The notes beneath the pieces are model-generated. The model worked only from the letters and a program-made list of their open reading frames with translations, made no database searches and was not told the origin of the DNA. A stretch of DNA of 64,000 bases from Chitinophaga horti (GTDB lineage Bacteria > Bacteroidota > Bacteroidia > Chitinophagales > Chitinophagaceae). A program made the position numbers and the translations under genes. This document shows, piece by piece, positions 46,693-62,509 of the stretch (positions within the stretch are counted from its first letter, which is position 1; the number at the start of each line of letters is the position of its first letter). Location of the stretch: the NCBI RefSeq assembly GCF_022867795.2, contig NZ_CP107006.1:4712001-4776000 (forward strand). The letters run 5' to 3'.

Positions 46693-47037
46693 ATGCATTT
46701 AAGCAATGAAGATGTACGCATCATCAACGAAGTCCGTTCCTACCTGGACAAAAACATTCCTGCCCGATTAAAAATAGCTGAGCTTGTCAACCTGTCCCGA
46801 CTTTCGCGAACGAAACTCACCCGGGGGTTTAACTTCTTATTTCAAACTCCTATTCATCAATACTGGCTGGATTTAGCGATGAGCTACGCAAAGCAACAGC
46901 TTGAACGAGGCACAACAAAAAAAGCCGTCGCCCAGTCACTTGGCTATGCGAACGTAAAAGTCTTCTCCCGTGCATACGCGCTTCACCACGGTATTACCCC
47001 AGCGCAAGAAGCGATAAGCGATATGAAGTGTGCCTAG
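46693..47037 (+). CDS. Short AraC-type HTH regulator (114 aa)
   Basis: A stand-alone AraC DNA-binding domain without sensor domain: first helix-turn-helix with I-A-E-L-V-N-L-S-R-L-S-R-T-K-L-T-R-G-F and second with K-K-A-V-A-Q-S-L-G-Y-A-N-V-K-V-F-S-R-A-Y. A truncated relative is at 40434 and a third at 47201. No ligand-binding domain is present. Its target may be local accessory genes. Confidence 0.85.
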   Translation: MHLSNEDVRIINEVRSYLDKNIPARLKIAELVNLSRLSRTKLTRGFNFLFQTPIHQYWLDLAMSYAKQQLERGTTKKAVAQSLGYANVKVFSRAYALHHGITPAQEAISDMKCA

Positions 47038-47200: not shown

Positions 47201-47542
47201 ATGAACCTTAGCTCCGAGGATATCTCACGCATTCAGCAAGTCTATGATCTCATTAAAGCGCAGCCTGAACGAAAGCATGACCAGAACACGCTTTCCAGGC
47301 TAGCAGGCATGGGACACACGAAGCTTCACGAGAGCTTTAAGTTTCTATATCAAATCTCAATCGCGAGATTCAAACTGGAACATAGCATGCGAAAAGCGAA
47401 GGCTATGTTAGCGGATGGACGTATGATTAAAGAAGTATCAGTTGCCCTTGGATACAATACTGTAGCGAATTTCAGTCGCGCATTTTTCAAATGTTTTGGC
47501 GAGCGACCAGCTGATTATCGCGCGCGAAAATATCGCGGTTAA
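47201..47542 (+). CDS. Short AraC-type HTH regulator (113 aa)
   Basis: A second stand-alone AraC DNA-binding domain: L-S-R-L-A-G-M-G-H-T-K-L-H-E-S-F-K-F-L-Y in the first HTH and I-K-E-V-S-V-A-L-G-Y-N-T-V-A-N-F-S-R-A-F-F-K in the second, ending in the typical R-P-A-D-Y-R-A-R. It follows the first after 163 bases on the same strand. The two differ considerably, so they are old paralogues. It is the last gene before the secreted-peptide region. Confidence 0.85.
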   Translation: MNLSSEDISRIQQVYDLIKAQPERKHDQNTLSRLAGMGHTKLHESFKFLYQISIARFKLEHSMRKAKAMLADGRMIKEVSVALGYNTVANFSRAFFKCFGERPADYRARKYRG

Positions 47543-48074: not shown

Positions 48075-48530
48075 ATGAGCTTTCTAGCAGTAAACAGACA
48101 AGTGAAAACAAACGGAAAATACGCTAGTCTTTTCGTCTACTTGATCGTATTTATTCTATCCGTACTATTCTTATATACGGCTTTAGATAAATTTCAGACA
48201 ATTCAAAAATTTACTGATATCATGGGCCGAATTTACCTGCCAGCTTTTTTGGTACCAATCGTGGCATGGGGAATACCAATTGTGGAAGTGATAATCGTGA
48301 CTGCATTACTACTACCAAAATTCAGACATTGGGGTTTACTCGCCTCTGCGATACTGCTAGCCATCTTCACCATATATATTACAGTTCTAAAGTTAACCGG
48401 ATTAAAACTACCCTGTAACTGCGGCGGAATAATTAGTTCGCTCTCATGGTGGAACCATATAATACTTAACACCGTACTCCTGATTGCAGCATCAATCGCA
48501 TATAAGATTGAAGCAAAAAGGGGATACTAA
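48075..48530 (+). CDS. MauE/DoxX-like redox-associated membrane protein
   Basis: A 151-residue protein with four membrane segments (about 18-36, 57-80, 87-105, 127-145) and the conserved L-K-L-P-C-N-C-G-G-I-I-S-S-L-S-W sequence with Cys 114 and Cys 116 between segments three and four. MauE/DoxX-like proteins pass reducing or oxidizing power across the membrane for thiol chemistry. I chose the ATG at 48075; an upstream in-frame start from 47997 is possible but adds a non-membrane tail. It precedes the array of secreted two-Cys proteins by 12 bases, so its likely substrates are those proteins or TlpA. Confidence 0.82.
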   Translation: MSFLAVNRQVKTNGKYASLFVYLIVFILSVLFLYTALDKFQTIQKFTDIMGRIYLPAFLVPIVAWGIPIVEVIIVTALLLPKFRHWGLLASAILLAIFTIYITVLKLTGLKLPCNCGGIISSLSWWNHIILNTVLLIAASIAYKIEAKRGY

Positions 48531-48542
48531 AAGATATCAAAA

Positions 48543-48848
48543 ATGAAAAACAAAATATTAGCGTTTTTCGTAGTCGTTCTTGCAACAGGTCTACAATTTG
48601 TAAAAGCCGATCAAAAAAAATCATCTGGACCGGGGACCGTGTATGCACAAACGAGTCCTGGAGTATATGAAGCCTTATTTTGGCCTTATTATCCAGAATT
48701 ATTTTGTACGGAATCGTACCCTTTTCCCTGCGCATTTACGCAGCCATCAGGTGACTACTCGATATATCCAAATACAATTACCTACGCGACAGCGGTTAGC
48801 AACTTTTTCTATGCTTCCGAATACAATGGATTGTATTATGGCGAATAG
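48543..48848 (+). CDS. Secreted two-cysteine peptide, array member 1 (101 aa)
   Basis: Signal peptide about 1-22 (F-V-K-A-D). The mature part follows the family plan: Y-x-Q-T-S-P-G-V-Y-E-A, P-Y-Y-P-E-L-F-C, seven residues, C-A-F, then G-D-x-x-x-Y and a final G-L-Y. The Cys pair is C-x7-C here, one residue longer than in the others. It starts 12 bases after the MauE-like gene and is the most diverged member after member 2. I see no lipobox. The family resembles small secreted Bacteroidota proteins of the DUF6520 type, but I am not certain. Confidence 0.75.
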   Translation: MKNKILAFFVVVLATGLQFVKADQKKSSGPGTVYAQTSPGVYEALFWPYYPELFCTESYPFPCAFTQPSGDYSIYPNTITYATAVSNFFYASEYNGLYYGE

Positions 48849-48905
48849 TTCGCATACTAGGAAGCTATAATGCATTCGCAACAGACATCGTTTAAAGTTT
48901 TAAAC

Positions 48906-49193
48906 ATGAGTAACGCATTTTTGGTTACAGCCGTGCTTTTTGCAACATTCGTTGTAACTAGAGCTACAAAACTTAAAAAAGTATCTGAAAGAATATATGT
49001 CCATGTTAGTCCGGGTGTCTACCAAAGGTTGATTCAACTTTACGCACCATCAATCCGTTGTTTCGAAGACAGTAACCCATGCGCATATATACAGCCATCT
49101 GACGATCATAAAATCTACCATGCGGTTTCACAGGATTTCGCGGAAAGAAATGGATGGATTAAGGAACATAATGGGATTTATGAGTTTGATTGA
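48906..49193 (+). CDS. Secreted two-cysteine peptide, array member 2 (95 aa)
   Basis: Starts at the ATG at 48906 with a signal peptide of about 20 residues (V-V-T-R-A-T). Core: V-S-P-G-V-Y-Q-R-L-I-Q, Y-A-P-S-I-R-C, six residues, N-P-C-A-Y, then D-D-H-K-I-Y and a final G-I-Y. It is the most diverged member. Upstream in-frame extension to 48870 is unlikely. Spacing of 57 bases from member 1. Confidence 0.72.
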   Translation: MSNAFLVTAVLFATFVVTRATKLKKVSERIYVHVSPGVYQRLIQLYAPSIRCFEDSNPCAYIQPSDDHKIYHAVSQDFAERNGWIKEHNGIYEFD

Positions 49194-49284
49194 TAAAGGA
49201 TATCCATTATCAGCGCCACGAAAAAGTCGATCTATGTAATTGCATACAAAAATGCACTACTCACTGACGCTAAATTAGCCTTAC

Positions 49285-49584
49285 ATGAAAGAGGGTATAT
49301 TAACATTAACAGCAATATCATTAGCCATGGGAGCATCGGCAGTATTAAACCGGATTTACGTTGCCCCGGGGGACAGGTATATTCAAGTTAGTATGGGTAC
49401 GTACGAACTACTAACTGCACCATACTATCCGTCTCTTTATTGCGACTATGGACAGAACCCATGCTCTTTTATTGTGCCACCCGGAGATAATAATGCATAT
49501 GGATCACAAATTTCCCTGCAAACGGCCTTGGATAACGACTTTATACCAAGTGATGAGGGAATTTATGAACCTCCGGGTGATTGA
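49285..49584 (+). CDS. Secreted two-cysteine peptide, array member 3 (99 aa)
   Basis: Signal peptide about 1-19 (M-G-A-S-A), then A-P-G-D-R-Y-I-Q-V-S-M-G-T-Y-E-L-L, P-Y-Y-P-S-L-Y-C, six residues, N-P-C-S-F-I-V-P-P-G-D-N-N-A-Y-G and a final G-I-Y. It belongs to the closely related subgroup with members 4, 5 and 6. The Cys pair is C-x6-C. An A-P-G-D tetrapeptide at the mature N-terminus is shared. Confidence 0.78.
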   Translation: MKEGILTLTAISLAMGASAVLNRIYVAPGDRYIQVSMGTYELLTAPYYPSLYCDYGQNPCSFIVPPGDNNAYGSQISLQTALDNDFIPSDEGIYEPPGD

Positions 49585-49624
49585 GGAACGACCTCGTATT
49601 TCAATAATATTCAAGCTCTAAAAA

Positions 49625-49917
49625 ATGAAAAACATATTACTTGCATTATCTGTGTTTTGCAGTGCATTGACGGCTAAATCAATAACTAAACCTGTAGCAA
49701 CTGTCCCTGGAAACGTTTATACTTAGATAGAGGCTGGAATTTACGGAAGAAGTATTGGGCCATATGATCCCTCACTATGCGAAGAGGGTCCAAATCCCTG
49801 CAGCTTCACTGTTCCCGCAGGAGACCACACAGTATATCCAAAATAGGCTTTCATTAAGCCAAGCTATTCTGTCGGGGCTAATCCCAGGTGATTTAGGCAT
49901 ATGTAGAAATATGTAAA
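49625..49917 (+). pseudogene. Decayed array copy between members 3 and 4
   Basis: Starts with ATG AAA AAC ATA (M-K-N-I-L-L-A-L) and keeps the Y-D-P-S-L-C and N-P-C-S-F-T-V-P-A-G-D core, but an in-frame TAG stops translation at the position of the conserved Gln before S/T-P-G-V-Y, and a second stop follows. The rest has drifted. A single CAG-to-TAG change could have killed it. Confidence 0.8.
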
Positions 49918-49947
49918 CTTCAACTATTGACTAAAAATTTTGATACA

Positions 49948-50241
49948 ATGAAAAATTTATTTCTCGTTTTAGCTGTGGCGTGCACCGCTTTTACAGCTAC
50001 TGCAATATCCAAATCGTATATGACTCCTGGTGACCTCTATGTGCAAACTAGTCCAGGAGTGTATACACTCTTTACAGGCCCATACCAGCCATCTCTTTAC
50101 TGTCGTGAGGACTTAAATCCTTGTTCATTTACGGTTCCTCCTGGAGACAATACAACCTATGGCTCCATGATAACGATGCAAACTGCTATAAGTAATCACT
50201 TAATCCCATCTGAAGGAGAAGGTCTCTACGAAGCACCTTGA
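49948..50241 (+). CDS. Secreted two-cysteine peptide, array member 4 (97 aa)
   Basis: Starts at the ATG at 49948, not at the in-frame TTG at 49927. Signal peptide about 1-18 (T-A-T-A), then P-G-D-L-Y-V-Q-T-S-P-G-V-Y-T-L-F-T-G-P-Y-Q-P-S-L-Y-C, six residues, N-P-C-S-F-T-V-P-P-G-D-N-T-T-Y-G, I-T-M-Q-T-A-I-S-N and a final G-L-Y. Nearly the consensus of the family. C-x6-C. Confidence 0.8.
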   Translation: MKNLFLVLAVACTAFTATAISKSYMTPGDLYVQTSPGVYTLFTGPYQPSLYCREDLNPCSFTVPPGDNTTYGSMITMQTAISNHLIPSEGEGLYEAP

Positions 50242-50326
50242 TCTATAAAACGCTTTTATTAAGCTAACAAAATCCAGACGCAAAATCTACAAAAGCAAAC
50301 CATTCAATTCAAATTAAAAATAGCAT

Positions 50327-50617
50327 ATGAAAAATATAATTCTGGTGATGGCTGTGATTTGCACAAGTTTCGCTGCTACCGCAATAACTAAATCAATCGT
50401 AGCTCCTGGTGACCGTTATGTGCAGACTAGTCCAAGTGTCTACACACTGCTTACAATACCATATTCTCCTTCTATGTACTGTGATGAAGGCGAAAACCCG
50501 TGCTCGTATAAAGTACCTAATGGTGACAATACTATCTACGGCTCCACAATATCGATTCAGACAGCTATCAATAATGCCTTTATACCAGATGCGGATGGCA
50601 TTTATGTCATGAACTAA
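50327..50617 (+). CDS. Secreted two-cysteine peptide, array member 5 (96 aa)
   Basis: Signal peptide about 1-18 (A-A-T-A), then A-P-G-D-R-Y-V-Q-T-S-P-S-V-Y-T-L-L-T, P-Y-S-P-S-M-Y-C, six residues, N-P-C-S-Y-K-V-P-N-G-D-N-T-I-Y-G, I-S-I-Q-T-A-I-N-N and a final G-I-Y. C-x6-C. Close to members 4 and 6. The 85-base spacer to member 4 could carry an independent ribosome-binding site. Confidence 0.8.
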   Translation: MKNIILVMAVICTSFAATAITKSIVAPGDRYVQTSPSVYTLLTIPYSPSMYCDEGENPCSYKVPNGDNTIYGSTISIQTAINNAFIPDADGIYVMN

Positions 50618-50732
50618 TTGCATCATATCATCATAAACATTTAAATAAGAGATCTTCACACGTGCGATGACAGGCTAAAAGCTATGTCCCTTAAAAATCT
50701 AGCGATTATTCTTAAACTAAAAAAGATGCAAA

Positions 50733-50973
50733 ATGAAAAACGTACTTTTTTCATTAGCTGGCCCCTGGTGACCGTTATATTCAGGTTAGCCAGTTGAATA
50801 TAACCCAGCTGACCGGACCTTATGAGCAATCACTTTACTGTAATAATCAGCAAATCCATGTTATTATGCAGCGCCCGTTGGTGACAATATAGCATATGGA
50901 AATTAAGTTACCCTACACAGCCCAGAGCAGGTGCTTCATTGCCCATGCAGAAGGAATTTACGATTTGCCTTAA
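50733..50973 (+). pseudogene. Decayed array copy between members 5 and 6
   Basis: Opens ATG AAA AAC GTA (M-K-N-V-L-F-S-L-A) like member 6, then loses the end of the signal peptide by a deletion and stops at TGA. Further fragments such as CTGACCGGACCTTATGAG and CGTTGGTGACAATATAGCAT correspond to the T-G-P-Y and G-D-N-T-Y parts in shifted frames. It ends at TAA 50971-50973 where the family normally ends. Confidence 0.8.
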
Positions 50974-51081
50974 TCTTCGATTTACCACGAAGTCAAAATA
51001 ATTCACATGTGTAATAACAGGTTAAAAGCCGCGTCCTGCGAAAATGTGGCGACTATTTCTAAAAAACAAAAAAAGCAAAAA

Positions 51082-51372
51082 ATGAAAAACGTATTATTTG
51101 CTCTGGCTGTAGTTTGCACTGGTGTTGCTGCTACCGCAATGACTAAATCAAATGTCGCTCCCGGTGACCGTTATGTTCAGACTAGCCCAGGTGTATATAC
51201 CCTGCTGACTGGACCTTATCAGCCATCTCTCTACTGCAATGAGCAGGAAAATCCTTGTTCGTTTGTAGTTCCTGCTGGCGATAACACTGTTTATGGCAAT
51301 CAAATTTCTATTCAGACTGCCACAACCAAAAATTTCATCCCAGCTGATGAAGGTCTTTATATACAGCCTTAA
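51082..51372 (+). CDS. Secreted two-cysteine peptide, array member 6 (96 aa)
   Basis: Starts at the ATG at 51082, preceded by an A-rich leader with AAAGCAAAAA. Signal peptide about 1-19 (A-A-T-A), then A-P-G-D-R-Y-V-Q-T-S-P-G-V-Y-T-L-L-T-G-P-Y, S-L-Y-C52, six residues, C59-S-F, G-D-N-T-V-Y-G, I-S-I-Q-T-A and a final G-L-Y. The upstream in-frame extension to 51007 is not part of the family. It ends 10 bases before a bidirectional terminator shared with the convergent tlpA-type gene. Confidence 0.82.
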   Translation: MKNVLFALAVVCTGVAATAMTKSNVAPGDRYVQTSPGVYTLLTGPYQPSLYCNEQENPCSFVVPAGDNTVYGNQISIQTATTKNFIPADEGLYIQP

Positions 51373-51382
51373 TCAGAAATTG

Positions 51383-51413
51383 AAAAAAAGGGCTGCTATG
51401 GCAGCCCTTTTTT
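51383..51413. terminator. Perfect bidirectional terminator between peptide array and TlpA operon
   Basis: AAAAAAAGGGCTGC (51383-51396) and GCAGCCCTTTTTT (51401-51413) form a perfect stem with a 4-base loop, and both strands carry a T-run after it. It ends the peptide array on the plus strand and the sigma/FecR/SusCD/TlpA operon on the minus strand. Confidence 0.93.
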
Positions 51414-52910
51414 CATCATTTCATTTATTGCCTGATCAATGACAGCATTAAGTTTCATCAAATCGAACAAAGGAGGTGCAGATTCATACATTTGACCTTC
51501 CTTAACGATCATAACGGTTGGAAATGAAGTGATTCCATATGCATTGATTAGCGGATGGCGGCCATTCTCGCCAGTCGCCTGAGGACTCGCTAAGAGATTT
51601 AAGGATTTAGCCGTTGTATATAAACCAGACTTGATACTTTTCAACCACTTCTGCTTATCCCGATCGATAGATACGGTCACAAAAACGACATTTGAGTCTT
51701 TTTCATACCTTTTGTGAAATGGTTCAAGATATTTCTTCAAAGAGGCGCAATTCGAGCAGCCAGTATACCAGAAATCAATAAACAATACTTTCTTTCGAAG
51801 ATTATCAAGAGTAACAATATTTCCCTTATCATCCTCCAGACTGAATGGAAAAAATGGCTGTCCACGATTCAATTTGAAAATTGCCTTCTCGATTAAGTCT
51901 CTGTACGAAGCATTTTGAATCAATTGTCTAGATTCTTTTGCATAAGACAAAACACCCGGAACCTGAGAGTAATTTAACACAAAAAGTGCAAATAGCTTAT
52001 CTCTAATTAACCCGTTGTAATTTAACTTGATATCATTAAATATGGGTTGCAGATACGCTCCAACATTCAAATCCCCCATTGCATTCCGTAACGATATCAT
52101 TCGGAATAGAAAATCCGTATAGATAGGTGCACCGACTAATATGCTTTCATCAAACTTCGGTAAACTATACTCTAGATTTCTAAAAACTGTCCTCTGAACA
52201 AATGCTTGAATCGCATCCGTGGGATAAATTGTAGTAATCATCGATCTAAACTGTAGAAAATACCTTGAACCATAACAGTTTGCAACCAGTGTGTCTGCGA
52301 ACATTCGGCCAATTACTTTAACATACTTTTTTACGACTAGGAGCCGCAAATTCAAAATAGAATCCTCCTTTTCATCTCTGAACTCAAATAAACTATCCCA
52401 TTTTCCTTCAGAAGCCAACTTTGTAAGCTTATCATTATCGTCGGTCGTGTTGTACTCAATCCTGTGCACGTCATCTTGGCACTGTAGCCGATGAAATTGT
52501 GATCCTGAAAATACTATTTTATTTTCAAATATTTTCATATCTATAACTGTGCGACCATCAACTTGAACAATATACACTTTATCAATGAAAGTCCAGACCT
52601 TATTTGCCGCGTCAGCGGTACAACCATAGGTTAGATAGACAATTCCCTTCTTATGCGGTATTACAACCTCAAAATCTTCATTGTATTTGAGTTCTACTGT
52701 ATATTTCGGAGGATTCGCAGTGAGTCGGTTTGCCGCTAGACTTGAAACATAAAAACGCAATTCAAATTTTTGATTTGGATTATTCGCCAACGATGGTTCT
52801 ACAACTTTTCCTTTAAGTATAAGTTCCGCTTGCGAAGTATCGAGATTGCTCAGTTTTCCATAGGCTAGTAGCTGGCTTAAAACCAACAACAGCATTATAA
52901 TTAATCTCAT
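51396..52910 (-). CDS. TlpA-type thioredoxin-fold protein, last gene of the SusCD operon
   Basis: A 504-residue exported protein. Signal peptide about 1-18 (L-L-A-Y-G), a long unrecognised region (about 20-355), then a thioredoxin-like domain (about 358-500) with F-W-Y-T-G-C-S-N-C-A-S (Cys 385 and Cys 388) and the cis-Pro at S-F-P-T (Pro 464). It is a periplasmic or surface thiol oxidoreductase of the TlpA/ResA type. It starts two bases after the SusD stop, so it belongs to the SusCD operon, and its substrates may be the secreted two-Cys proteins that converge on it. Confidence 0.88.
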   Translation of the reverse strand: MRLIIMLLLVLSQLLAYGKLSNLDTSQAELILKGKVVEPSLANNPNQKFELRFYVSSLAANRLTANPPKYTVELKYNEDFEVVIPHKKGIVYLTYGCTADAANKVWTFIDKVYIVQVDGRTVIDMKIFENKIVFSGSQFHRLQCQDDVHRIEYNTTDDNDKLTKLASEGKWDSLFEFRDEKEDSILNLRLLVVKKYVKVIGRMFADTLVANCYGSRYFLQFRSMITTIYPTDAIQAFVQRTVFRNLEYSLPKFDESILVGAPIYTDFLFRMISLRNAMGDLNVGAYLQPIFNDIKLNYNGLIRDKLFALFVLNYSQVPGVLSYAKESRQLIQNASYRDLIEKAIFKLNRGQPFFPFSLEDDKGNIVTLDNLRKKVLFIDFWYTGCSNCASLKKYLEPFHKRYEKDSNVVFVTVSIDRDKQKWLKSIKSGLYTTAKSLNLLASPQATGENGRHPLINAYGITSFPTVMIVKEGQMYESAPPLFDLMKLNAVIDQAINEMMKKGLP

Positions 52911-52912
52911 AT

Positions 52913-54307
52913 CTACCGGATATTTTGGTTGATCTTACTTAAAACGATTTCGTTGTCTGGAATTGGAAAAACAAACTTAGGATCGTTAGCATCGAGTATA
53001 TAAGTCTTTCCATCAATAATTCTTTTGAGTGACATGATCCCTCCTGCGCTATTTAAACGCTTTACATCCTGCCACCTCGCTCCTCGCCAGACAAGTTCCT
53101 TTCGCCTCTCCAAAAGAATCATATTCAAAGCTTCATCTCTCGTCTGAGCTGACATGTCAATATACGGGGCTGCTGGATTTGTTGCACCAGGATTCCAGCG
53201 GTTAATGAGCAGCTGGTTCAAATAAGACATTGCGGTGGAAATATTTCCGTTTCGTGCCGCGCTTTCGGCTTTTATAAGATATACTTCATCCATCGCTAAT
53301 CCAGTGAAGGGTACTAGCCCTGGTCCGCCATACCCCCTTTTGAAATCATAGGTTCCATCACTTTGTCGTAAGAAAAATATGTTCAACCGAAGATCATTGG
53401 GACCATATAATGCGATTAATTCTGGACTGACTTTAATGTTCGCATTGTTACTGGAAGTAGAATACGTCCCGTTTCCAACCGCCTGGCTATGATAGATCTG
53501 CTCGCCATGATTTAAAGCAAACGGAGCATTAGAGGTCTTTGAAAGACTGTTGTAGTTGAGCAACCTGTTATTTAGTTGCAAACAACTATCTGCGTATAGC
53601 TCTGCAAGTTTATAATGCTCCATTGTTAAATAAACTTTCGCCAATAACGCGTATGCAGCGTACTTCGAAGGTCGTGTTTTAGTTGCTGCTACTTCGACGT
53701 TCAGCGACGGGATTGCCGCATTCAAATCATTTATGATTTGACTATAAGTTTGTTCAACCGATGATCGTGGAAGCACTTCGTCTATCGACGGCTTAACGCG
53801 CAAAGGAATACCCAAATCCGAAGCTGCTGTTGATTTTGAATAGGATTTAGAGAAGTTCGACACGAGATCAAAATAGGCATAAGCTCGAACAAATAGCGCC
53901 CATCCGTTGGTATACTTCCAGTTCAATTCACTCTGAGGAGTTGTGACGATTGTTTGAAGACCGGCCAGTACATTGTTCGCATAAAATATAGCGGTGTATG
54001 GGAGGTTCCAATTATCTGAGTTTTCCCCTTCGAACAGATCAGCTGCCCAAATGTAGGAGTTTCTTGAAACAGTTGGAGCGGCTTTCCAAGTATCATTATT
54101 TGAAAACTCGTACTCATCGCCTCCAAGAATACCTAATCCCGAAGTAGCATTGATTGCCGAATTATTATCCAGCAATTTCTGAAATTCGTCCAAAGTTCTG
54201 GGTTGTACAATTTCAGAACTTGGTTTTTCCTCCAAAAAGTCCTTCCCACATCCCGTGAGCATAATACAGCTAAAAACGCAGGCTAAAACTATATGTATCT
54301 TTTTCAT
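52913..54307 (-). CDS. SusD/RagB-family outer-membrane lipoprotein
   Basis: A 464-residue surface lipoprotein: signal peptide with lipobox L-T-G-C (lipid Cys about 20), then the SusD helical TPR-like frame with F-L-E-E-K-P-S-S at the start and the R-R-K-E-L-V-W-R-G-A-R-W-Q-D-V-K-R stretch near the C-terminus, the clearest SusD signature. It captures the ligand and closes the SusC barrel. I chose the ATG at 54307; an upstream frame to 54346 lies in SusC. It starts 10 bases after the SusC stop. Its length is at the short end of the family. Confidence 0.93.
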   Translation of the reverse strand: MKKIHIVLACVFSCIMLTGCGKDFLEEKPSSEIVQPRTLDEFQKLLDNNSAINATSGLGILGGDEYEFSNNDTWKAAPTVSRNSYIWAADLFEGENSDNWNLPYTAIFYANNVLAGLQTIVTTPQSELNWKYTNGWALFVRAYAYFDLVSNFSKSYSKSTAASDLGIPLRVKPSIDEVLPRSSVEQTYSQIINDLNAAIPSLNVEVAATKTRPSKYAAYALLAKVYLTMEHYKLAELYADSCLQLNNRLLNYNSLSKTSNAPFALNHGEQIYHSQAVGNGTYSTSSNNANIKVSPELIALYGPNDLRLNIFFLRQSDGTYDFKRGYGGPGLVPFTGLAMDEVYLIKAESAARNGNISTAMSYLNQLLINRWNPGATNPAAPYIDMSAQTRDEALNMILLERRKELVWRGARWQDVKRLNSAGGIMSLKRIIDGKTYILDANDPKFVFPIPDNEIVLSKINQNIR

Positions 54308-54317
54308 GTTTTCTGAA

Positions 54318-57300
54318 TTAAAATGTTGCTTTGAAACCGACTGCAAACGTAGTTGGCATTGGATATCCGGTCTGCACTTCAGGATCTAAAATATCATTGC
54401 TCTTCCTCCAAATAACTCCTACGTTGCTTACATATCCGTAAACATTAATATCTCGAACAAGAAGCTTAGGAAATTGATTCTTAGAGATAGTATAGTTAGC
54501 TTGTATGTCTTGTATACGGACATGGTCGCCACGTTCAATCAAATGATCTGAATAGGTGTAAAAGTTAGTTCTTCCGATATTATTTGGATAAATTAATGCA
54601 GGTACATTCGTCGTCAATTCATCTCCAGGCTTTTGCCATCTGTTTTCATAGTCGGGTTGCTTGAACACGATTGTAGAGCCATAGATAGAACCATTATTTA
54701 AAGAGTTACGACGAAAATAATAATTCATTTTATAGATCAAGTTCACCGATACCTCCAATCCCTTAAAAGAAAAGGTATTTCTTAAGCTCCCGAATGTTAT
54801 GGGAGTTCCTGAACCAACGAAATTCAAATCAGAGCGATTACTCGAGTTCCGAATCGCTGTATAATCCTTGACGATTGCATTGGCAAGATACCCTTGTGGA
54901 CTTCCGGTCCCATCCAAGCCCGCCCAGCGGTAGCCGAAAAGGGCATTAATTGGATATCCCTTAAGTGGTGTTAATGAACCGAGCGTGCTTGTAACAACGG
55001 TATTATTTGTACCCGTTTCTACTTTATAATCGGTGATTTCATCTTTAACTTGATTGAAAATGAAAGTAGTTGACCACCTTATTGCGCGATCTATATTTAA
55101 AGATGTCAATTGAACATCAATGCCGCGAGTTCTTGTGTCAGCTGTATTACCTATAAATTGAGACACGCCAGTCTGCGGGGCAATAGGACTGGTACCTATC
55201 AAATCAGTGCCATCCTTGGCGAAAAACTCAATGCTTCCGGAAATAACGTCATTCTTTGTAGAGAAGTTTAAACCCACATTTTTATTTTTCACTCTCTCCC
55301 ACCGCAAAAAATCATTAGGAGGATTAATAATGTTGTAATACAATGTATTGGTATAAGGGTTAATAAGGGAGGGAGCAGCCGTCAAATATGCCGAAACGGA
55401 ATTATTGATGTTTCCATTATAGCCGTAGGTTGCCCTTAACTTTAATAAATTTAACCACGGCAGACTCACGAATTTTTCATTTAGTACACTCCAGGACAGA
55501 CCAATTGACCAAAGCGGCACCCCTTTTTGGTTCGCCTTAACGCCAAAAAGGTTCGACTCGTCTTTTCTGAAGCTTCCAGATATTGTATACCGGCGGTCAT
55601 AAGTGTACAATCCGTTGGCATAATAAGATATGTATTTGTCCGTGGTCTTGTACTGCCTATTTCCGGAAGGAATTTGAGCTACTGCTCCATTGTAGTAATT
55701 CGGAAATAAAGTTACGTAGTCAACTGGCACATTCGTCTCAGTCGAGAAATTGTATCCATACAGAGTATTCGTCCTAACTTCTTTATAAGAATCATCCCTT
55801 GCTTCATATCCGGCAAGAAAATTAATCATATGGATGCGATCAAACTCCTCATTGAAATTCAATTGAACCCTCCCATAATTTGATTCACGTAATGAAGATG
55901 ACGGTACAACAATACCACCTAAAGGCACAGGACGAACTATAGCACTCCCTCCTATTGAAGTGTATGAATTTATGAGGTTCCTTACGTAAAAAGAATTTTC
56001 GCTATAACTATCCTGAGCGGTACGGCTAGCATTATAATATTGATAGTTTGCACTCAGGTTTAACGACTTTATGATCTGGTAATTTGCACCGACATTTATA
56101 CGATAGTCAACTAAAGTGGCGTTTGACTGAGCATATTTATTTGTAAAATCATCCAGCGGCCGATAGTTCCAATCCAGAAGCCGCCCTCTTCCGGCTGTAT
56201 CGGTATACGAAGATCTCAAACCACCTGCAATTACAATGGACCGATGCCCACCGTCAGAATTAGTGAGTTCTTCATAGGGTAAGTTGCCAATTCGGCTGTT
56301 TAAATCGTTGTTTGTAAAATTTGACTTTGAAAATGTTATGTCAGGATTAATAGTTATTTTTTTGCTGAGCAAATAATGACTACTGTTAGCCTTAAGGGTG
56401 ATTCTTTCGTCTGACTGAGCAACAAGATTAGGCCTGTTACGATCATAGCCCGCAGAGAAGTAATAAGATTGATTGGCGCCTCCCCCGGTAATGTCGAAAA
56501 TGTAATGTTCCCTCACTGACTTTCGATAATAATAATCTGACTGGTCATCCCGGTAATCGACTGCTCTAAGACGATCAATTTCACGCATCCCTTGATCTTT
56601 ATAAGAAGGTTCTGTTTTAATCCTCTGCAAAATTGAAACGACTGGAGAAAGAGCTCCGTACTCATTGTCGATCGTACTAGTGTAAGCACCGTTGTTGAAG
56701 AGGTATGTTTCAACATCTATAAATTCGCTGGACGACAATTGTGGTTCGTACCACAGGTCTGGCTTTCCTGCGATTGTCAGATCGCTCTTTATGGAAACCG
56801 TTGGTTTCAAGTTTAGTTTCCCCTTTTTGGTTGTTATGACGATCACGCCATTGCCGGCTCTAACACCCCAGATGGCTGCGGCGCCAGCATCTTTTAGTAC
56901 AGTAACACTTTCAATCATATCGGGATTGATCGTATTTAAATCACCTTCGAAGGGGAAATTATCTACGACGATCAACGGCTTCGTACTTGAAAAAATTGTA
57001 CTCCTTCCGCGAACGCTGATGCCTAAACTGTTACCTGTTTGATTGCTGACAAGCAGGCCATTTGTCACGCCATTTAAGCGCGATAAAATATCTGCGGATA
57101 CAGTCCTATTCAGTAATTTATTATCAACCAACGTTACGGACCCCGTAGCTCGTTCTGGGGACAAATTCTGGTAACCCGTTGAAATTTCGACGCCTTTAAT
57201 TTCTATGACAGATGGCTTGATGATGGCATTGTAAGTGGTGGTATTGGATGCATCGAGAATATAGGTTTCATAACCTACTGAAGAAATCGAGATTTTAACA

Positions 57301-57863
57301 TTTTTTGATGGGATGTTCAATTCATAGATACCCTGGGCGTTCGTATAAGTCCCAATCTTCGTACCAATGACACGTACGGACGCACCATCCACTGGCTTAC
57401 CGTCGAGGTCTTCTACTTTTCCCCTGATCTTTATAGGTGAGGTATCCAGCATCACGGGTGCAAGTGGTTTAGCTGCTTTATATTCGCTGATCACGACATA
57501 CTTATCATTTACCTGATAAGTCAGTGGTAATCCTTTCAGGCCGTTGGATAAGGCGGTTTGTATGGTTACATCAACTAAATTGACGCTCGTTCTGAAGCTC
57601 CTTCCAATATCGCTTTTGTAACTAAAGACATATCCGGTCTGTCGCTCGATATCTTCAAACAATTTTTCCAGGGTAACATTATTGGCCTTCAGCGTGATCC
57701 GCTGGGCGTTTGCATTTCCAAATGCATGGATGCAGATCATAAACATAAGTAAAGAGAATACCTGTAATCGCATAATGATCTTGGTTATTTGCCGATTTTT
57801 AAAAAAATACAGCTTCGTCTCTTTCCTTGCAGGACAAAGGAAAGTACATGTAAAAATTTTCAT
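54318..57863 (-). CDS. SusC/RagA-family TonB-linked outer-membrane protein with STN domain
   Basis: A 1181-residue SusC homologue. Signal region up to about residue 53 (N-A-N-A-Q), STN domain (about 55-125, with L-E-K-L-F-E-D-I-E-R-Q-T-G-Y-V-F-S-Y) that contacts FecR, CarboxypepD_reg-like domain (about 145-225, with V-D-G-A-S-V-R-V-I-G-T), plug with S-V-R-G-R-S-T-I and I-E-S-V-T-V-L-K-D-A-G-A-A-A-I-W-G-V-R-A, and a long barrel. The STN domain links it to the FecR/sigma pair upstream, so it senses its ligand and signals its own expression. It could start at 57773 (M-R-L-Q), but many STN-type SusC proteins have a long charged leader, so I keep 57863. Confidence 0.93.
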   Translation of the reverse strand: MKIFTCTFLCPARKETKLYFFKNRQITKIIMRLQVFSLLMFMICIHAFGNANAQRITLKANNVTLEKLFEDIERQTGYVFSYKSDIGRSFRTSVNLVDVTIQTALSNGLKGLPLTYQVNDKYVVISEYKAAKPLAPVMLDTSPIKIRGKVEDLDGKPVDGASVRVIGTKIGTYTNAQGIYELNIPSKNVKISISSVGYETYILDASNTTTYNAIIKPSVIEIKGVEISTGYQNLSPERATGSVTLVDNKLLNRTVSADILSRLNGVTNGLLVSNQTGNSLGISVRGRSTIFSSTKPLIVVDNFPFEGDLNTINPDMIESVTVLKDAGAAAIWGVRAGNGVIVITTKKGKLNLKPTVSIKSDLTIAGKPDLWYEPQLSSSEFIDVETYLFNNGAYTSTIDNEYGALSPVVSILQRIKTEPSYKDQGMREIDRLRAVDYRDDQSDYYYRKSVREHYIFDITGGGANQSYYFSAGYDRNRPNLVAQSDERITLKANSSHYLLSKKITINPDITFSKSNFTNNDLNSRIGNLPYEELTNSDGGHRSIVIAGGLRSSYTDTAGRGRLLDWNYRPLDDFTNKYAQSNATLVDYRINVGANYQIIKSLNLSANYQYYNASRTAQDSYSENSFYVRNLINSYTSIGGSAIVRPVPLGGIVVPSSSLRESNYGRVQLNFNEEFDRIHMINFLAGYEARDDSYKEVRTNTLYGYNFSTETNVPVDYVTLFPNYYNGAVAQIPSGNRQYKTTDKYISYYANGLYTYDRRYTISGSFRKDESNLFGVKANQKGVPLWSIGLSWSVLNEKFVSLPWLNLLKLRATYGYNGNINNSVSAYLTAAPSLINPYTNTLYYNIINPPNDFLRWERVKNKNVGLNFSTKNDVISGSIEFFAKDGTDLIGTSPIAPQTGVSQFIGNTADTRTRGIDVQLTSLNIDRAIRWSTTFIFNQVKDEITDYKVETGTNNTVVTSTLGSLTPLKGYPINALFGYRWAGLDGTGSPQGYLANAIVKDYTAIRNSSNRSDLNFVGSGTPITFGSLRNTFSFKGLEVSVNLIYKMNYYFRRNSLNNGSIYGSTIVFKQPDYENRWQKPGDELTTNVPALIYPNNIGRTNFYTYSDHLIERGDHVRIQDIQANYTISKNQFPKLLVRDINVYGYVSNVGVIWRKSNDILDPEVQTGYPMPTTFAVGFKATF

Positions 57864-57935
57864 ACTTTTACGTCAGTTTGGTTGTTTTAAATTAGGTTCC
57901 TTGCTGGGACATTTTTTAAAGGCCAAATGCATTAT

Positions 57936-57965
57936 GCCGAAGAGCGGGTGAGATCGCTTTTCGGC
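57936..57965. promoter_or_regulatory. Hairpin in the fecR-susC intergenic region
   Basis: GCCGAAGAGCG (57936-57946) pairs with CGCTTTTCGGC (57955-57965), an 11-base stem with one wobble pair and an 8-base loop. It lies in the 195-base spacer between fecR and susC, within the likely leader of susC. No T-run follows it on the operon strand, so it is a candidate mRNA structure, not a terminator of the operon. Confidence 0.5.
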
Positions 57966-58058
57966 TTTTATATTCAGCCTGGTCGTGTTTCAATGACAAT
58001 CTGTTTCTGTTTTCGAACTCCTTTCTTCTTAGTATATGGTCGTGTTTTATCTATGTAT

Positions 58059-59189
58059 TTACTGATAGCCGATAACTGTTAAAGTCTTTTCTCCATTATT
58101 TTTTTCGGTAAGCTTAAAATCTATATCTAAGTCACCTAATGCTTTCAAAAATTGAGTCAATGGTACCGAGCGGGGGATCGCAAACGTGATCTGCCTGCTA
58201 CTGATGCTTCCACTATAAACTACGTCCAGATCGTACCAACGCCCGGCTTCTCTCAATATCTCCTTTAGCTGAGCATCTTTGAATCTGATGATGCCCTTCC
58301 TCCAGGAGGCGGAATGGGTCGGAGCTTCGCCGATGGTAAACTCTTCGGCAGATAGAAAGGCCTGCTGTCCAGGTTTTAGCAATTGCTTCGCACGGCCATT
58401 CCCAATTCTTACGCTCCCTTCCAATAGCACGGTCTTTATACCAGGTTCATCGGAATAAGCATTAACATTGAACTTAGTGCCAAGCACTTCGATCACCTGG
58501 CCAGCTGATTTTACAATAAAAGGTTTATGCGACATCCGGGTCACTTCAAAATAACATTCTCCGGTGGTAGTAACTTCTCGTATCCCTGAATTGAATTTTA
58601 CAGGGAATGAGATAGATGATGCAGCATTCAGCCACACTTTAGTGCCATCAGATAATGTGACTTGATAGCTTCCTCCCCGCGGCGTTTCCACGGTGTTTAT
58701 AGTGCGCGTATTGGCACTGGCAGACTCAACATCAGCCATATCGTAAACAAGCGTACCTGATGAATCCTTGTAGATTTTAACACCGGCTTCGGTGGCAATT
58801 TTGCTTCCGTTAGTCGTATCCAAGTATACCTTTTTCCCATTCGATAAAACGAGAAAAGCCTGGTTTTTTCCAGGAGCAACATTTGTGATAATGATTGGTT
58901 CTGTAGGTGAAATTCGATGGTTGGATTTAAAGACAAATACTGCAAAAACTAAAACTGCAGCAGCCGATGAATAGTACGCAATGCGGCGAACGCGTCTTAA
59001 CATCGTTTGCTTCCGAATCGCCGCATTTAGAACTGTCCACACTTCCGTTTCGGCATACGCTTCACCTTCGGTTTGAGCTTTGGGATTTCCATCAGGGCCA
59101 AACAAGGTCATTTCGACAAACTCGACTTGATCGGGAGTGCATTCACCCCGAGCGTATAGTTCCAGTAATTTTCTTATCTCTTTATCCAT
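58059..59189 (-). CDS. FecR-family anti-sigma regulator
   Basis: A 376-residue anti-sigma factor. N-terminal cytoplasmic region (about 1-85), one membrane segment (about 88-105, I-A-Y-Y-S-S-A-A-A-V-L-V-F-A), then the periplasmic FecR domain (about 165-270, with V-E-T-P-R-G-G-S-Y-Q-V-T-L-S-D-G-T-K-V-W-L-N-A-A-S) and a C-terminal DUF4974 domain (from about 305, I-I-R-F-K-D-A-Q-L-K-E-I-L-R). It holds the sigma factor until the STN domain of SusC signals substrate. It is 176 bases after the sigma gene and 195 bases before susC. Standard length. Confidence 0.94.
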   Translation of the reverse strand: MDKEIRKLLELYARGECTPDQVEFVEMTLFGPDGNPKAQTEGEAYAETEVWTVLNAAIRKQTMLRRVRRIAYYSSAAAVLVFAVFVFKSNHRISPTEPIIITNVAPGKNQAFLVLSNGKKVYLDTTNGSKIATEAGVKIYKDSSGTLVYDMADVESASANTRTINTVETPRGGSYQVTLSDGTKVWLNAASSISFPVKFNSGIREVTTTGECYFEVTRMSHKPFIVKSAGQVIEVLGTKFNVNAYSDEPGIKTVLLEGSVRIGNGRAKQLLKPGQQAFLSAEEFTIGEAPTHSASWRKGIIRFKDAQLKEILREAGRWYDLDVVYSGSISSRQITFAIPRSVPLTQFLKALGDLDIDFKLTEKNNGEKTLTVIGYQ

Positions 59190-59365
59190 GTAGGTTCAAT
59201 TGCAACAGCCCTATATTATATTATACATCTGAGGAGACGTTGGGATGTAAAAAAATTAAAAAAATAACGTTGACGAATAAACGACGCAACGCCGAAAAGC
59301 AGACCAGTCGGCCTGCGTGATTTATATGTGATGTCTAAGCTTTCGTGGAATTGTTTTGAGCTAGA

Positions 59366-59935
59366 TTAGAAAAAGCAACGTAATCCTACTCCCATTATTT
59401 TTAAACGTTGAAGTGCTTTTCTTATATTATCTCTCACGGTATTGTAGGGTATATTGTTTTCTTGACTAATAACCGAATGGGACTTGTCTTCAAAACGGCT
59501 TTGAATAAAAACGTCCCTAACTTTAGGTTTCATTTTCTGAAGCGCACTCGCAATTGATTCCTCCAGCTCCTGAAGTAATATCCTATTCTCCGTATCATTA
59601 TGTCCTTCAGAAAATGTGGCTTTCAGATGATCAAAATAATTATGATCATTGCTCGTCTTTAATGTGATCCGTGTCGATTTATGAAATATCAACCTGTACA
59701 GATAAGCCAACAACTTACCATCATGTATATCGATGGTCTTCCGCTTTTCCCATAAGTGCATGTATACGTCCTGAGTCAAATCCCTAGCATGCTCTTCATC
59801 ACTGGTAAGTCTCAATGCACGTCGATATAAAAGCACGTTGTGGCGATTATACAATTCGGCATAAGCCTGCTGATCAGCATTTTCTTTCAAAAGCTGAAAT
59901 AATTGCGAATCAGTAAGTTTATCAATTGAACTCAT
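59366..59935 (-). CDS. ECF RNA polymerase sigma factor
   Basis: A 189-residue sigma factor with region 2 (about 24-90; A-R-D-L-T-Q-D-V-Y-M-H-L-W-E-K-R) and region 4 (about 130-182; M-K-P-K-V-R-D-V-F, V-I-S-Q-E-N-N-I-P-Y-N-T-V-R-D-N-I-R-K-A-L), the FecI-like arrangement. It directs transcription of the fecR/SusCD/TlpA operon downstream. It is the first gene of the operon and has its own promoter. The C-terminus ends with R-C-F-F. Confidence 0.94.
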   Translation of the reverse strand: MSSIDKLTDSQLFQLLKENADQQAYAELYNRHNVLLYRRALRLTSDEEHARDLTQDVYMHLWEKRKTIDIHDGKLLAYLYRLIFHKSTRITLKTSNDHNYFDHLKATFSEGHNDTENRILLQELEESIASALQKMKPKVRDVFIQSRFEDKSHSVISQENNIPYNTVRDNIRKALQRLKIMGVGLRCFF

Positions 59936-60454: not shown

Positions 60455-60949
60455 ATGAAATCCATATTGCTATTAGTTTCCTGGATATTTTTATTTAAGG
60501 TTGATGGTGCTCGCGCTGTTGACGAATGTTGCGGCAAATGCACCGGCTCCGCTTATTGCACAGCCTGCAGAAATTGCAGCCGATGCGCGCATTGTAACAG
60601 TGGCGGCAGTTGCGGCGTTTGCAGTAACGATCTGCCTACCTACAAACCGTCGCGCAGCGTCCGCTATCCATCCTCATCACCATCTTCTACCATTAAACCC
60701 TCACGCCCCTCGTCATTAAAATTAACTACCGTACAATATTATGTAAACACTTCCCTGTTAAACGTCCGATCCGGCCCGGGAACCAGCTTTCCAGTTATTA
60801 CCAAGGTTTCAGTAAGTACAAACGTTAAAATAGAAAATGAGTTTAACAACGGATGGTGCGAAATATCATTTATAAACACAAACTACCTACAGGTAAAAGG
60901 CTACGTAGTGAAAAAGTACCTGGCTTATTATACCAAGGCGATTGATTAA
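60455..60949 (+). CDS. Secreted SH3-domain protein with a Cys-rich head (164 aa)
   Basis: Signal peptide about 1-19. The N-terminal mature part is Cys-rich (E-C-C-G-K-C-T-G-S-A-Y-C-T-A-C and C-S-R-C-A-H-C, ten or more Cys up to about residue 57). A Ser/Pro-rich linker (about 60-88) leads to a bacterial SH3b domain (about 95-155) with S-L-L-N-V-R-S-G-P-G-T-S-F-P-V-I, the typical cell-wall-binding motif. It may bind metal through the Cys cluster and the envelope through SH3. It stands alone next to the KAP NTPase. Confidence 0.85.
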   Translation: MKSILLLVSWIFLFKVDGARAVDECCGKCTGSAYCTACRNCSRCAHCNSGGSCGVCSNDLPTYKPSRSVRYPSSSPSSTIKPSRPSSLKLTTVQYYVNTSLLNVRSGPGTSFPVITKVSVSTNVKIENEFNNGWCEISFINTNYLQVKGYVVKKYLAYYTKAID

Positions 60950-61051: not shown

Positions 61052-62509
61052 ATGATCGACGATCCTTTATATTTTCAAGTCATCACCGAATATCCCGTAC
61101 CTGCATTCCAGAAGCATATCGATGATGAACGGAATCAACATATATTCTTTTCAGGAAAATACGGCTCGGGGAAGTCAACTTTCCTGGAGGATTTTTTTCG
61201 ACAGCGGACGGATAAGTATAATGTTTTCAAGGTTTCTCCTATCAACTACTCGATTTCCACGAACGAAGACATCATCCGATATATAAAGTACGACCTCCTT
61301 TTATGTTTACTCGAAATAGGCGCGCTTGATGACAGCGGCCGCAAAACACCAACATTTACAGAGACCAGTATAAAATTTGCGAAACGAGAATTTAAACCAT
61401 TTGTTAAGCAATTAGTAAAAATGATACCGGAAGTTGGCAAGAGTTTGGTTGACGCATATGAATACATTGAAGATTTCGATAAAAGATTCTACTCGCTATA
61501 TGACGAATTATCCATAAGTAAGTTTGAAAAGTTGGAATCGTTTATGGGTGATGTCGAAAGCGCAGGAAGATTATATGAAAATGACATCATCACAACAATG
61601 ATCAATTCATTGACAGGTAAGCAGAATCCCGACGCAGAGCAAAGAAGCGTATTAATTATTGATGATCTTGACCGGCTTGACCCTGACCATACTTTTAGAA
61701 TACTAAACGTTTTCGCAAGCCAACTACACTCAAAGAGAATTGACAGAGGCACTCAACTATTATTTGACAAAGTTATAGTGGTTGCAGACATTGAAAATAT
61801 TCGAAATATGTATGAGCACCGCTATGGATCGAAAACAGATTTTACGGGCTTCATTGATAAATTCTACAGTTCTGATGTGTTTCATTTCGATAATGGCCCT
61901 GCGTTTAAAAAAGAAGTTCTTAAGCTATTAGACACCTTCACGGTTCCTGGTAGTGATCGCGGGTTGAACAGGCTTTATCTATCTGATCCACTAATAGTCG
62001 ATATTATTGTTTTCTTAGTCGAGAAACGACAATTAACGCTAAGAGCGCTTAAGAATGTGGCCGGCAAGCAAATTGACTATCATAATGAAGATGTGGATAT
62101 GGGATTTGAAAATGTAGTTAAGGCCATACATCTCCCGCTAGTAGCAAAACTGAAATTTCTTGTAACGGTTATAGGGGGAGCCTTTGAACTAGAAAGGCAT
62201 ATCGATAAGTTTAAATATAACAAGGTTAAGTTTTCAAATATGCTGATTGGGGACTTGATGTATCTTTTACATTTCGAAAGAAAATTTGCAGGGCAAGAAA
62301 AAGTGACTTTGCAAATAGGCACCGATAAATATGTATTGCAATCTTCAGTGGATGGGGGTGGAAGAGATAACCTCTATAGCTATTCAACAGTAAAACAGCC
62401 CACACAGCCTGGCGAAGACCCTCAGAATTTTACTGGTTCCCCATCTGAGTATTGGGAGAAATTTGGCGAGGTTTTTTCGATGTTGCGACAACATGGATAT
62501 ATAAAGTAA
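61052..62509 (+). CDS. KAP-family P-loop NTPase (485 aa)
   Basis: Walker A G-K-Y-G-S-G-K-S-T (35-43) and Walker B V-L-I-I-D-D-L-D-R-L-D (200-210) place it in the KAP group of STAND-like P-loop NTPases. No membrane segments are evident, unlike many KAP proteins. KAP NTPases are frequent in mobile elements and phage-defence loci. It lies between the SH3 gene and the integrase, converging on the latter. The C-terminal part has no recognisable effector domain. Confidence 0.88.
   Translation: MIDDPLYFQVITEYPVPAFQKHIDDERNQHIFFSGKYGSGKSTFLEDFFRQRTDKYNVFKVSPINYSISTNEDIIRYIKYDLLLCLLEIGALDDSGRKTPTFTETSIKFAKREFKPFVKQLVKMIPEVGKSLVDAYEYIEDFDKRFYSLYDELSISKFEKLESFMGDVESAGRLYENDIITTMINSLTGKQNPDAEQRSVLIIDDLDRLDPDHTFRILNVFASQLHSKRIDRGTQLLFDKVIVVADIENIRNMYEHRYGSKTDFTGFIDKFYSSDVFHFDNGPAFKKEVLKLLDTFTVPGSDRGLNRLYLSDPLIVDIIVFLVEKRQLTLRALKNVAGKQIDYHNEDVDMGFENVVKAIHLPLVAKLKFLVTVIGGAFELERHIDKFKYNKVKFSNMLIGDLMYLLHFERKFAGQEKVTLQIGTDKYVLQSSVDGGGRDNLYSYSTVKQPTQPGEDPQNFTGSPSEYWEKFGEVFSMLRQHGYIK

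Follow-up and report, generated by a model that had tools for sequence, protein, structure and literature searches.

Chitinophaga horti (Bacteroidota; Chitinophagaceae) carries a tandem array of genes for small, predicted exported two-cysteine proteins, led by a MauE-family gene and converging on an operon for a SusCD-type importer. Here, we report the content of this locus, its recurrence in relatives, and a possible function. The window is the whole stretch analyzed, 64,000 nucleotides of contig NZ_CP107006.1 (assembly GCF_022867795.2, positions 4,712,001 to 4,776,000); coordinates are window positions unless a locus or genome label precedes them.

The array lies on the plus strand behind a short MauE-family membrane protein with a P-C-N-C-G-G motif (48075..48530). 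Its match to PF07291 reached 101.1 bits against a cut-off of 27 (scanned as 48093-48527; ATG at 48075), and P-C-x-C-G-G is invariant across 12 aligned MauEs. Six intact copies of 95 to 101 amino acids (aa) follow, at 48543..48848 (copy 1), 48906..49193 (copy 2; 107 aa if started at the possible upstream ATG at 48870), 49285..49584 (copy 3), 49948..50241 (copy 4), 50327..50617 (copy 5), and 51082..51372 (copy 6). All six rest on open reading frames (ORFs) and alignment, with additional Pfam matches for copies 1, 5, and 6. The paralogues share 15 invariant columns, both cysteines included, with C-x7-C spacing in the first copy and C-x6-C in the other five. A profile of the array, run with E up to 1 against the closed 6.3-Mb genome, gave nine matches: the six intact copies and three pieces belonging to two broken copies with in-frame stops, one dead copy with two in-frame TAG codons (plus strand, about 49625..49917) and one dead and decayed (plus strand, about 50733..50975). 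ORFs and profile thus agree with the initial annotation, which had described six intact and two dead tandem copies led by MauE. Two AraC-type regulators consisting of a helix-turn-helix (HTH) only stand upstream on the same strand (46693..47037, Pfam HTH_18, 46.4 bits; 47201..47542, HTH_18, 60.3 bits).

The facing operon, on the minus strand, encodes an extracytoplasmic function (ECF) sigma factor (59366..59935; Sigma70_r2, 41.8 bits), a FecR anti-sigma regulator (58059..59189; FecR, 65.1 bits), a SusC TonB-dependent transporter (54318..57863; Plug, 51.2 bits), a SusD lipoprotein (52913..54307; SusD-like_3, 103.6 bits), and a TlpA-like protein (51396..52910). With the SusD domain and the TonB plug both present, the transporter pair is of the SusCD type; the STN-like N terminus of SusC scored 26.4 bits, slightly below the Pfam cut-off of 28.4, and FecR and sigma factor are both present. 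The TlpA-like protein belongs to the TlpA/ResA-like group (Thioredoxin_8, 47.4 bits over a cut-off of 27), its PDB relatives are thiol-disulfide oxidoreductases, and its CSNC motif and signal peptide were identified by eye. Both strands end at one shared intrinsic terminator (51383..51413, no strand), a hairpin that reads in both directions (−23.3 kcal/mol, z −5.1). Domain matches and hairpin folding bear out the earlier proposal that the array converges through a bidirectional terminator on a sigma-FecR-SusC-SusD-TlpA operon.

The same plan occurs twice more in the genome. At locus L022, the genes opposite SusC-SusD-TlpA are for a DUF6520 protein (just above the cut-off), another small Cys protein, and MauE; at L023, those opposite SusC-SusD-TlpA are for a two-Cys protein of 85 residues, MauE, and an HTH-only regulator. 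Four additional MauE matches in this genome lie in different settings.

Recurrence was counted in a MauE census of 30 genomes of the genus, C. horti included. Usually, one MauE per genome spans a long open frame of about 365 aa, and all others are short. The census comprised 102 loci, namely 100 short MauEs outside the C. horti genome among the matches listed plus L022 and L023, with the window left out; weaker short MauEs may be missing from it, and contigs sometimes end early (420 bases of room at L162, 4541 at L163). Small ORFs were accepted if they lay within 1.8 kb after MauE and had a signal-like start and at least two Cys at any spacing. Such an ORF followed MauE at 84 of the 102 loci, with a C-x6-8-C core at 81, and a convergent SusD lay within 8 kb at 69; core protein and convergent SusD occurred together at 63 and neither at 15. 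TlpA accompanied SusD at 39 loci, and an upstream same-strand AraC-family gene was present at 39 (HTH-only in 9). Among the first 63 loci (window, L022, L023, L030-L089), 45 had a convergent SusD. Control readings gave a convergent SusD in 0/40 strand readings at 20 long-MauE loci and 1/40 at 20 arbitrary genus loci, and a core small protein in 0/40 readings at long-MauE loci and 1/120 at arbitrary positions. Co-occurrence beyond chance, set in advance as the test of the initial annotation, was therefore found, MauE, two-Cys protein, and convergent SusCD standing together far above the controls. With the same finder and a 4-kb reach, none of the 102 loci held more than four core small proteins, whereas the window holds six, so its array is the largest of these 103 loci. 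Its copy number is a local oddity; the module itself is common and widespread. Separately, seven loci (L030, L031, L033, L034, L060, L075, and L079) carry MauE with families of small proteins, six of them without a convergent SusD within 8 kb; at L031, the convergent SusD is 6.5 kb distant, with other genes between.

To look beyond the genus, one MauE was used as a query; it yielded 28 loci from named sources (Chitinophaga, Deminuibacter, Flavobacterium, Pedobacter, Chryseobacterium, Epilithonimonas, Aequorivita, Sinomicrobium, and metagenome bins, one of them labelled Williamsia, probably wrongly). Two of the named Chitinophaga loci, L132 and L135, align at 65-80% over kilobases with loci from four genomes of the genus (G007, G010, G026, and G028). 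On reading, a small multi-Cys protein that starts with a signal-like sequence is encoded downstream of MauE in 27 of the 28 (at L145, one lies upstream), and a convergent SusD is present in 23. Enzyme genes were present in 26, though not always inside the convergent SusCD operon: an S9 peptidase in 16, TlpA in 9, an M16 peptidase in 1 (L156), and none in 2. The operon is not convergent at L142 and L145; TlpA sits beside FecR with no SusD found at L131, and upstream of SusC at L149, L150, and L157. In the Flavobacteriales, an S9 peptidase occupies the place of TlpA; no S9 gene was seen in the window locus. The S9 enzyme of L136 scored 74 bits with the Dpp5 model and 64.7 of 400 bits with that of the AtxE2-family lasso isopeptidases (NF033523), both far under the cut-off and the latter short of family membership. 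Three Flavobacterium records (L138, L139, and L140) have near-identical small proteins and MauE fusions of equal length, reflecting either recent spread or close strains.

Judged by sequence, the small proteins of these loci are relatives of Pfam DUF6520 (PF20130), which they resemble in length, signal-peptide start, and position after MauE, with the array members sub-threshold. In a Pfam scan of the six array proteins, copies 1, 5, and 6 reached 20.7, 19.6, and 13.6 bits, all under the cut-off of 25.4 and thus outside the family as defined, and copies 2, 3, and 4 were without a match. Outside the window, five of nine scanned small proteins passed (L022, L136, L141, L146, and L152) and four did not (L023, L132, L138, and L147). 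As many module proteins score below the cut-off, PF20130, found above it in 18 of 296 Bacteroidota genomes, is a poor probe for the module. Of 86 small proteins from outside the window, 73 show C-x6-C or C-x7-C spacing; 200 shuffles gave 18.3 on average and 30 at most. This set holds proteins with two or more mature Cys, 17 of them picked by eye from the named loci, and stops short of the last 40 loci; among its 37 proteins with exactly two Cys, the spacing is 6 or 7 in 32. The exact array subfamily is nearly private, since its profile gave a single weak match among 59 relatives outside its own genome (G008, E 0.007); that match sits in a MauE/SusCD locus, L089, whose small protein is also the best array match among the 86 scored. 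Structure prediction of an array peptide gave a predicted local distance difference test (pLDDT) score of 47.7 with six sequences and was set aside, and a PDB profile search returned 5 matches, none meaningful (best E 0.38). A supposed link to NVEALA was dropped after weak matches in 2 of 148 Bacteroidota genomes, none above the cut-off.

The importer side was approached independently by searching the genus blindly with the window SusD and then scoring short MauEs within 8 kb. Among the matches listed outside C. horti, a short MauE lay beside 28 of the top 44 and 1 of the remaining 94; since the cut at rank 44 was chosen after viewing the list and the loci are related, the Fisher value (7e-17) is descriptive only. 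By sequence, the window SusD is placed with a MauE-linked SusD subgroup. The closest MauE-linked loci by SusD among the matches listed (L158, L159, L160, and L089) encode small proteins of similar plan, by eye, and the window MauE is nearest to MauEs of different loci (L086, L046, and L068).

Selection was examined on the mature parts of the small proteins. Of 14 hand-picked pairs, 11 gave a finite ratio of nonsynonymous to synonymous rates (dN/dS), between 0.04 and 0.49, and in the other 3 dS was saturated; among array copies 3 to 6, dN/dS was 0.11 to 0.20 in three of six pairs, the other three being saturated. From these values, the small proteins look constrained, under overall purifying selection. 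A hypervariable or arms-race reading is unsupported, dN/dS being below 1 in 11 of 14 pairs, although whole-region averages leave single sites possible. Over 61 loci, rank Mantel r was 0.087 for peptide-SusC, 0.053 for peptide-SusD, 0.188 for peptide-MauE, 0.036 for SusC-MauE, and 0.839 for SusC-SusD, with saturating distances; an earlier 40-locus run was similar. Nearest SusC neighbors share peptide types (mean percentile 0.157 versus 0.5 expected), and at the 21 loci without a close SusC neighbor, the peptide percentile is 0.284 and that of MauE 0.433; this result leans towards coupling. SusC-only and MauE-only neighbors showed no difference in peptide similarity. The parts thus seem to travel together at close range and the two halves to have been re-paired at long range, a pattern that would neither prove nor exclude ligand-receptor matching.

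Some loci carry a further companion. In 10 of the 28 named loci, MauE is extended at its C terminus by a domain of roughly 350 residues, which is a separate gene at 37 of the 102 genus loci and had no match in 40 control loci. Examples are L132:10415-11443, L136:10436-11464, and 18 more in alignment A5. AlphaFold 2 (AF2) predicted the separate form as a transmembrane-anchored beta-propeller (pLDDT 83.6). The top solved match of the model is the DUF4221 protein BVU_1028 (3s9j; Z 18.7 over 283 residues, 3.6 Å), with NHL propellers level at 18.6; methylamine dehydrogenase heavy chain is absent from the best 50 structural matches, which excludes nothing. Four separate copies (three of them scanned in Pfam) showed nothing near the cut-off in Pfam or NCBIfam, and a PDB profile search gave no match up to E 10.

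Further features were noted around these genes. The L023 MauE (L023:6881-7300) seems to lack its first transmembrane part, its profile match crossing an upstream TGA, and the TlpA-like protein of L022 (L022:4399-5820) carries a C-terminal DUF3738 domain. One other SusD of the genome (G000:C1:1671360-1672679) has 41% identity to the window SusD and a Thioredoxin_8 gene downstream, with no MauE nearby among the matches listed. In the window, a Cys-rich protein with an SH3_3 domain (60455-60946) adjoins a KAP NTPase (61052-62506).

Several described systems resemble the module in part. The mau cluster (MauE/MauD/MauA) likewise combines a MauE-family membrane protein, a thioredoxin-like protein (MauD), and a small Cys protein; it differs in that the module has a SusCD importer and a TlpA in the opposite operon. 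MauE and MauD are needed for methylamine dehydrogenase, and disulfide formation in its beta subunit has been speculated for MauE; in Streptomyces, MauE genes adjoining precursors with at least eight Cys were flagged as possible peptide-modifying enzymes (PMC7794033). Lasso clusters with isopeptidases (astexin type) have a near-constant plan, with a regulator and precursor next to the opener, a TonB transporter, and sigma/anti-sigma genes (PMC9266682); binding and release in the manner of a siderophore has been proposed as their role (PMC9266682, PMC11006600). They share this plan with the module and differ in that its precursors have a Sec-type signal and are Cys-based and the window enzyme has a thioredoxin fold; the likeness includes the AtxE2 match of the L136 enzyme, at a score below its own Dpp5 score. 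Methanobactin loci (MbnA/MbnT/MbnR/MbnI) pair a small Cys peptide with its own TonB transporter, and Methylosinus adds a FecI/FecR-like pair, some operons having similar logic in MbnT/R/I (PMC3621798); unlike these, the module has a SusD partner and longer, folded-size proteins. Ferredoxin import by FusA/FusC also passes a protein through a TonB transporter and on to an M16 protease (PMC6071955), that protein being plant-derived as against the self-made one proposed here, and M16 having been seen only in L156. A paper on protease-associated import (PMC6793856) does not contain the words Bacteroidetes, SusD, lasso, or disulfide. Searches on DUF6520 and on NVEALA found no paper, the papers listed for MauE with SusC and Bacteroidetes were off topic judging by titles, and searches on MauE/DoxX/TlpA gave only legume symbiosis redox. 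The module is undescribed in the literature searched, which did not extend to subscription papers and preprints.

From the genes, their recurrent pairing, the cysteine spacing, the purifying selection in the pairs tested, and the MauE-linked SusD subgroup, we infer export, a disulfide, a direction of thiol reaction, import, signalling, and perhaps a load. The most likely reading, which we hold tentatively, is a module with two sides for a mini-protein that the cell makes itself and that a disulfide locks: one side would make it, and the facing SusCD would receive it. The outline of the module is that of the lasso and methanobactin systems, a disulfide replacing the isopeptide bond and the opener being either reductase-like or a peptidase of the S9 or M16 type. 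On the making side, the small proteins with their C-x6/7-C pair would be exported by Sec, and a dedicated MauE would set or keep their disulfide at the inner membrane; by analogy, action of MauE and TlpA on peptide thiols would fit the MauE/MauD precedent. On the receiving side, the SusCD pair may bind or import the mini-protein, alone or loaded, its occupancy being reported via STN-FecR-sigma, and the opening enzyme of the operon (TlpA here, S9 or M16 peptidases in relatives) might unlock or digest it in the periplasm. The window array would be an enlarged case of this, in which copies have arisen and decayed.

Several observations weigh against this. No convergent SusD lies within 8 kb at 33 of the 102 loci, a few of them near contig ends, and as 18 of these have a core small protein, MauE and small protein can manage without an adjacent SusCD. 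At 29 of the 69 convergent SusCD loci, neither TlpA nor S9/M16 was found by the models used, and thioredoxin-type genes are common beside SusCD anyway, a Thioredoxin_8 match lying within 5 kb downstream of 25 of the 102 SusD-like matches in the C. horti genome. No conserved load-binding residues besides Cys were seen by eye, and peptide similarity follows SusC no better than MauE (p 0.14, 0.88, and 0.20). Apart from this reading, control of the array by sigma/FecR is unsupported here, as the array is on the opposite strand, behind a terminator and with AraC-type genes upstream. Overall, the interpretation given with the initial annotation, in which MauE and TlpA handle the peptide thiols and the peptides may be ligand, signal, or cargo of the SusCD pair, is supported in part.

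Somewhat less probably, the small protein is a fixed accessory of SusCD (a periplasmic or surface subunit or a chaperone) that MauE and TlpA merely fold, the true substrate being a nutrient from outside, for instance a peptide. Operons that combine SusCD and an S9 or M16 peptidase do look nutritional, and overall purifying selection would suit such a part; six divergent copies would be odd for a fixed subunit, however, and the 18 loci pairing MauE and small protein without a convergent SusD, the separate strand, and the AraC-type genes upstream also speak against it. It is improbable that the secreted mini-protein is a self-signal sensed by STN-SusC-FecR-sigma. The MbnIRT model has similar logic (PMC3621798), and the flanks retrieved for 51 of the 69 convergent-SusD loci contain a sigma or FecR gene, but an STN-like N terminus was detected in at least 37 of 66 convergent SusCs (a lower bound from a single query), diversifying selection was not seen over whole mature parts, and the peptide follows SusC no better than MauE.

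More doubtful still is a methylamine-dehydrogenase-like complex, in which MauE would mature a small disulfide protein and a beta-propeller into an exported redox or binding complex. The mau cluster, too, encodes a propeller subunit along with a small subunit that has disulfides, and the predicted membrane-anchored propeller (AF2 pLDDT 83.6) at 37 of 102 loci and the MauE fusions in 10 of 28 named loci fit this; against it, no propeller gene was seen in the window locus, among the solved folds shown, DUF4221 and NHL propellers come closest, and a conserved Trp pair for a quinone cofactor is missing (by eye). Least probable are bacteriocin-like or defensive small proteins, with the remaining genes for immunity or recycling: small size, signal peptides, and multiple copies with dead ones would suit them, whereas the proteins are under purifying selection, had no toxin-family match in Pfam or NCBIfam scans, and stand in no exporter/immunity pattern that we saw, though no specific search was made.

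Returning to the disulfide-locked mini-protein, its extension to the family is a conjecture that we consider possible but less assured: widespread Bacteroidota mini-proteins would be secreted, retrieved by their own SusCD with or without a load, and then unlocked in the periplasm, where a dedicated reductase or peptidase would act on them; MauE (in some lineages propeller-fused) would be the maturation enzyme, and the whole would parallel the lasso/isopeptidase and methanobactin cycles with a disulfide as the lock. To our knowledge, the substrate of most SusCD-type importers is unknown. A SusCD subgroup with a possible partner encoded next door would be an unusual opportunity to assign a substrate and to study protein import by SusCD, and DUF6520-like proteins, of a family of unknown function, gain a testable context made up of a thiol enzyme, a subgroup of importers, and an opening enzyme. 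The recurrence of this arrangement in many relatives points to a system not described so far, one that would couple a disulfide-locked protein of the cell's own making to its own importer.

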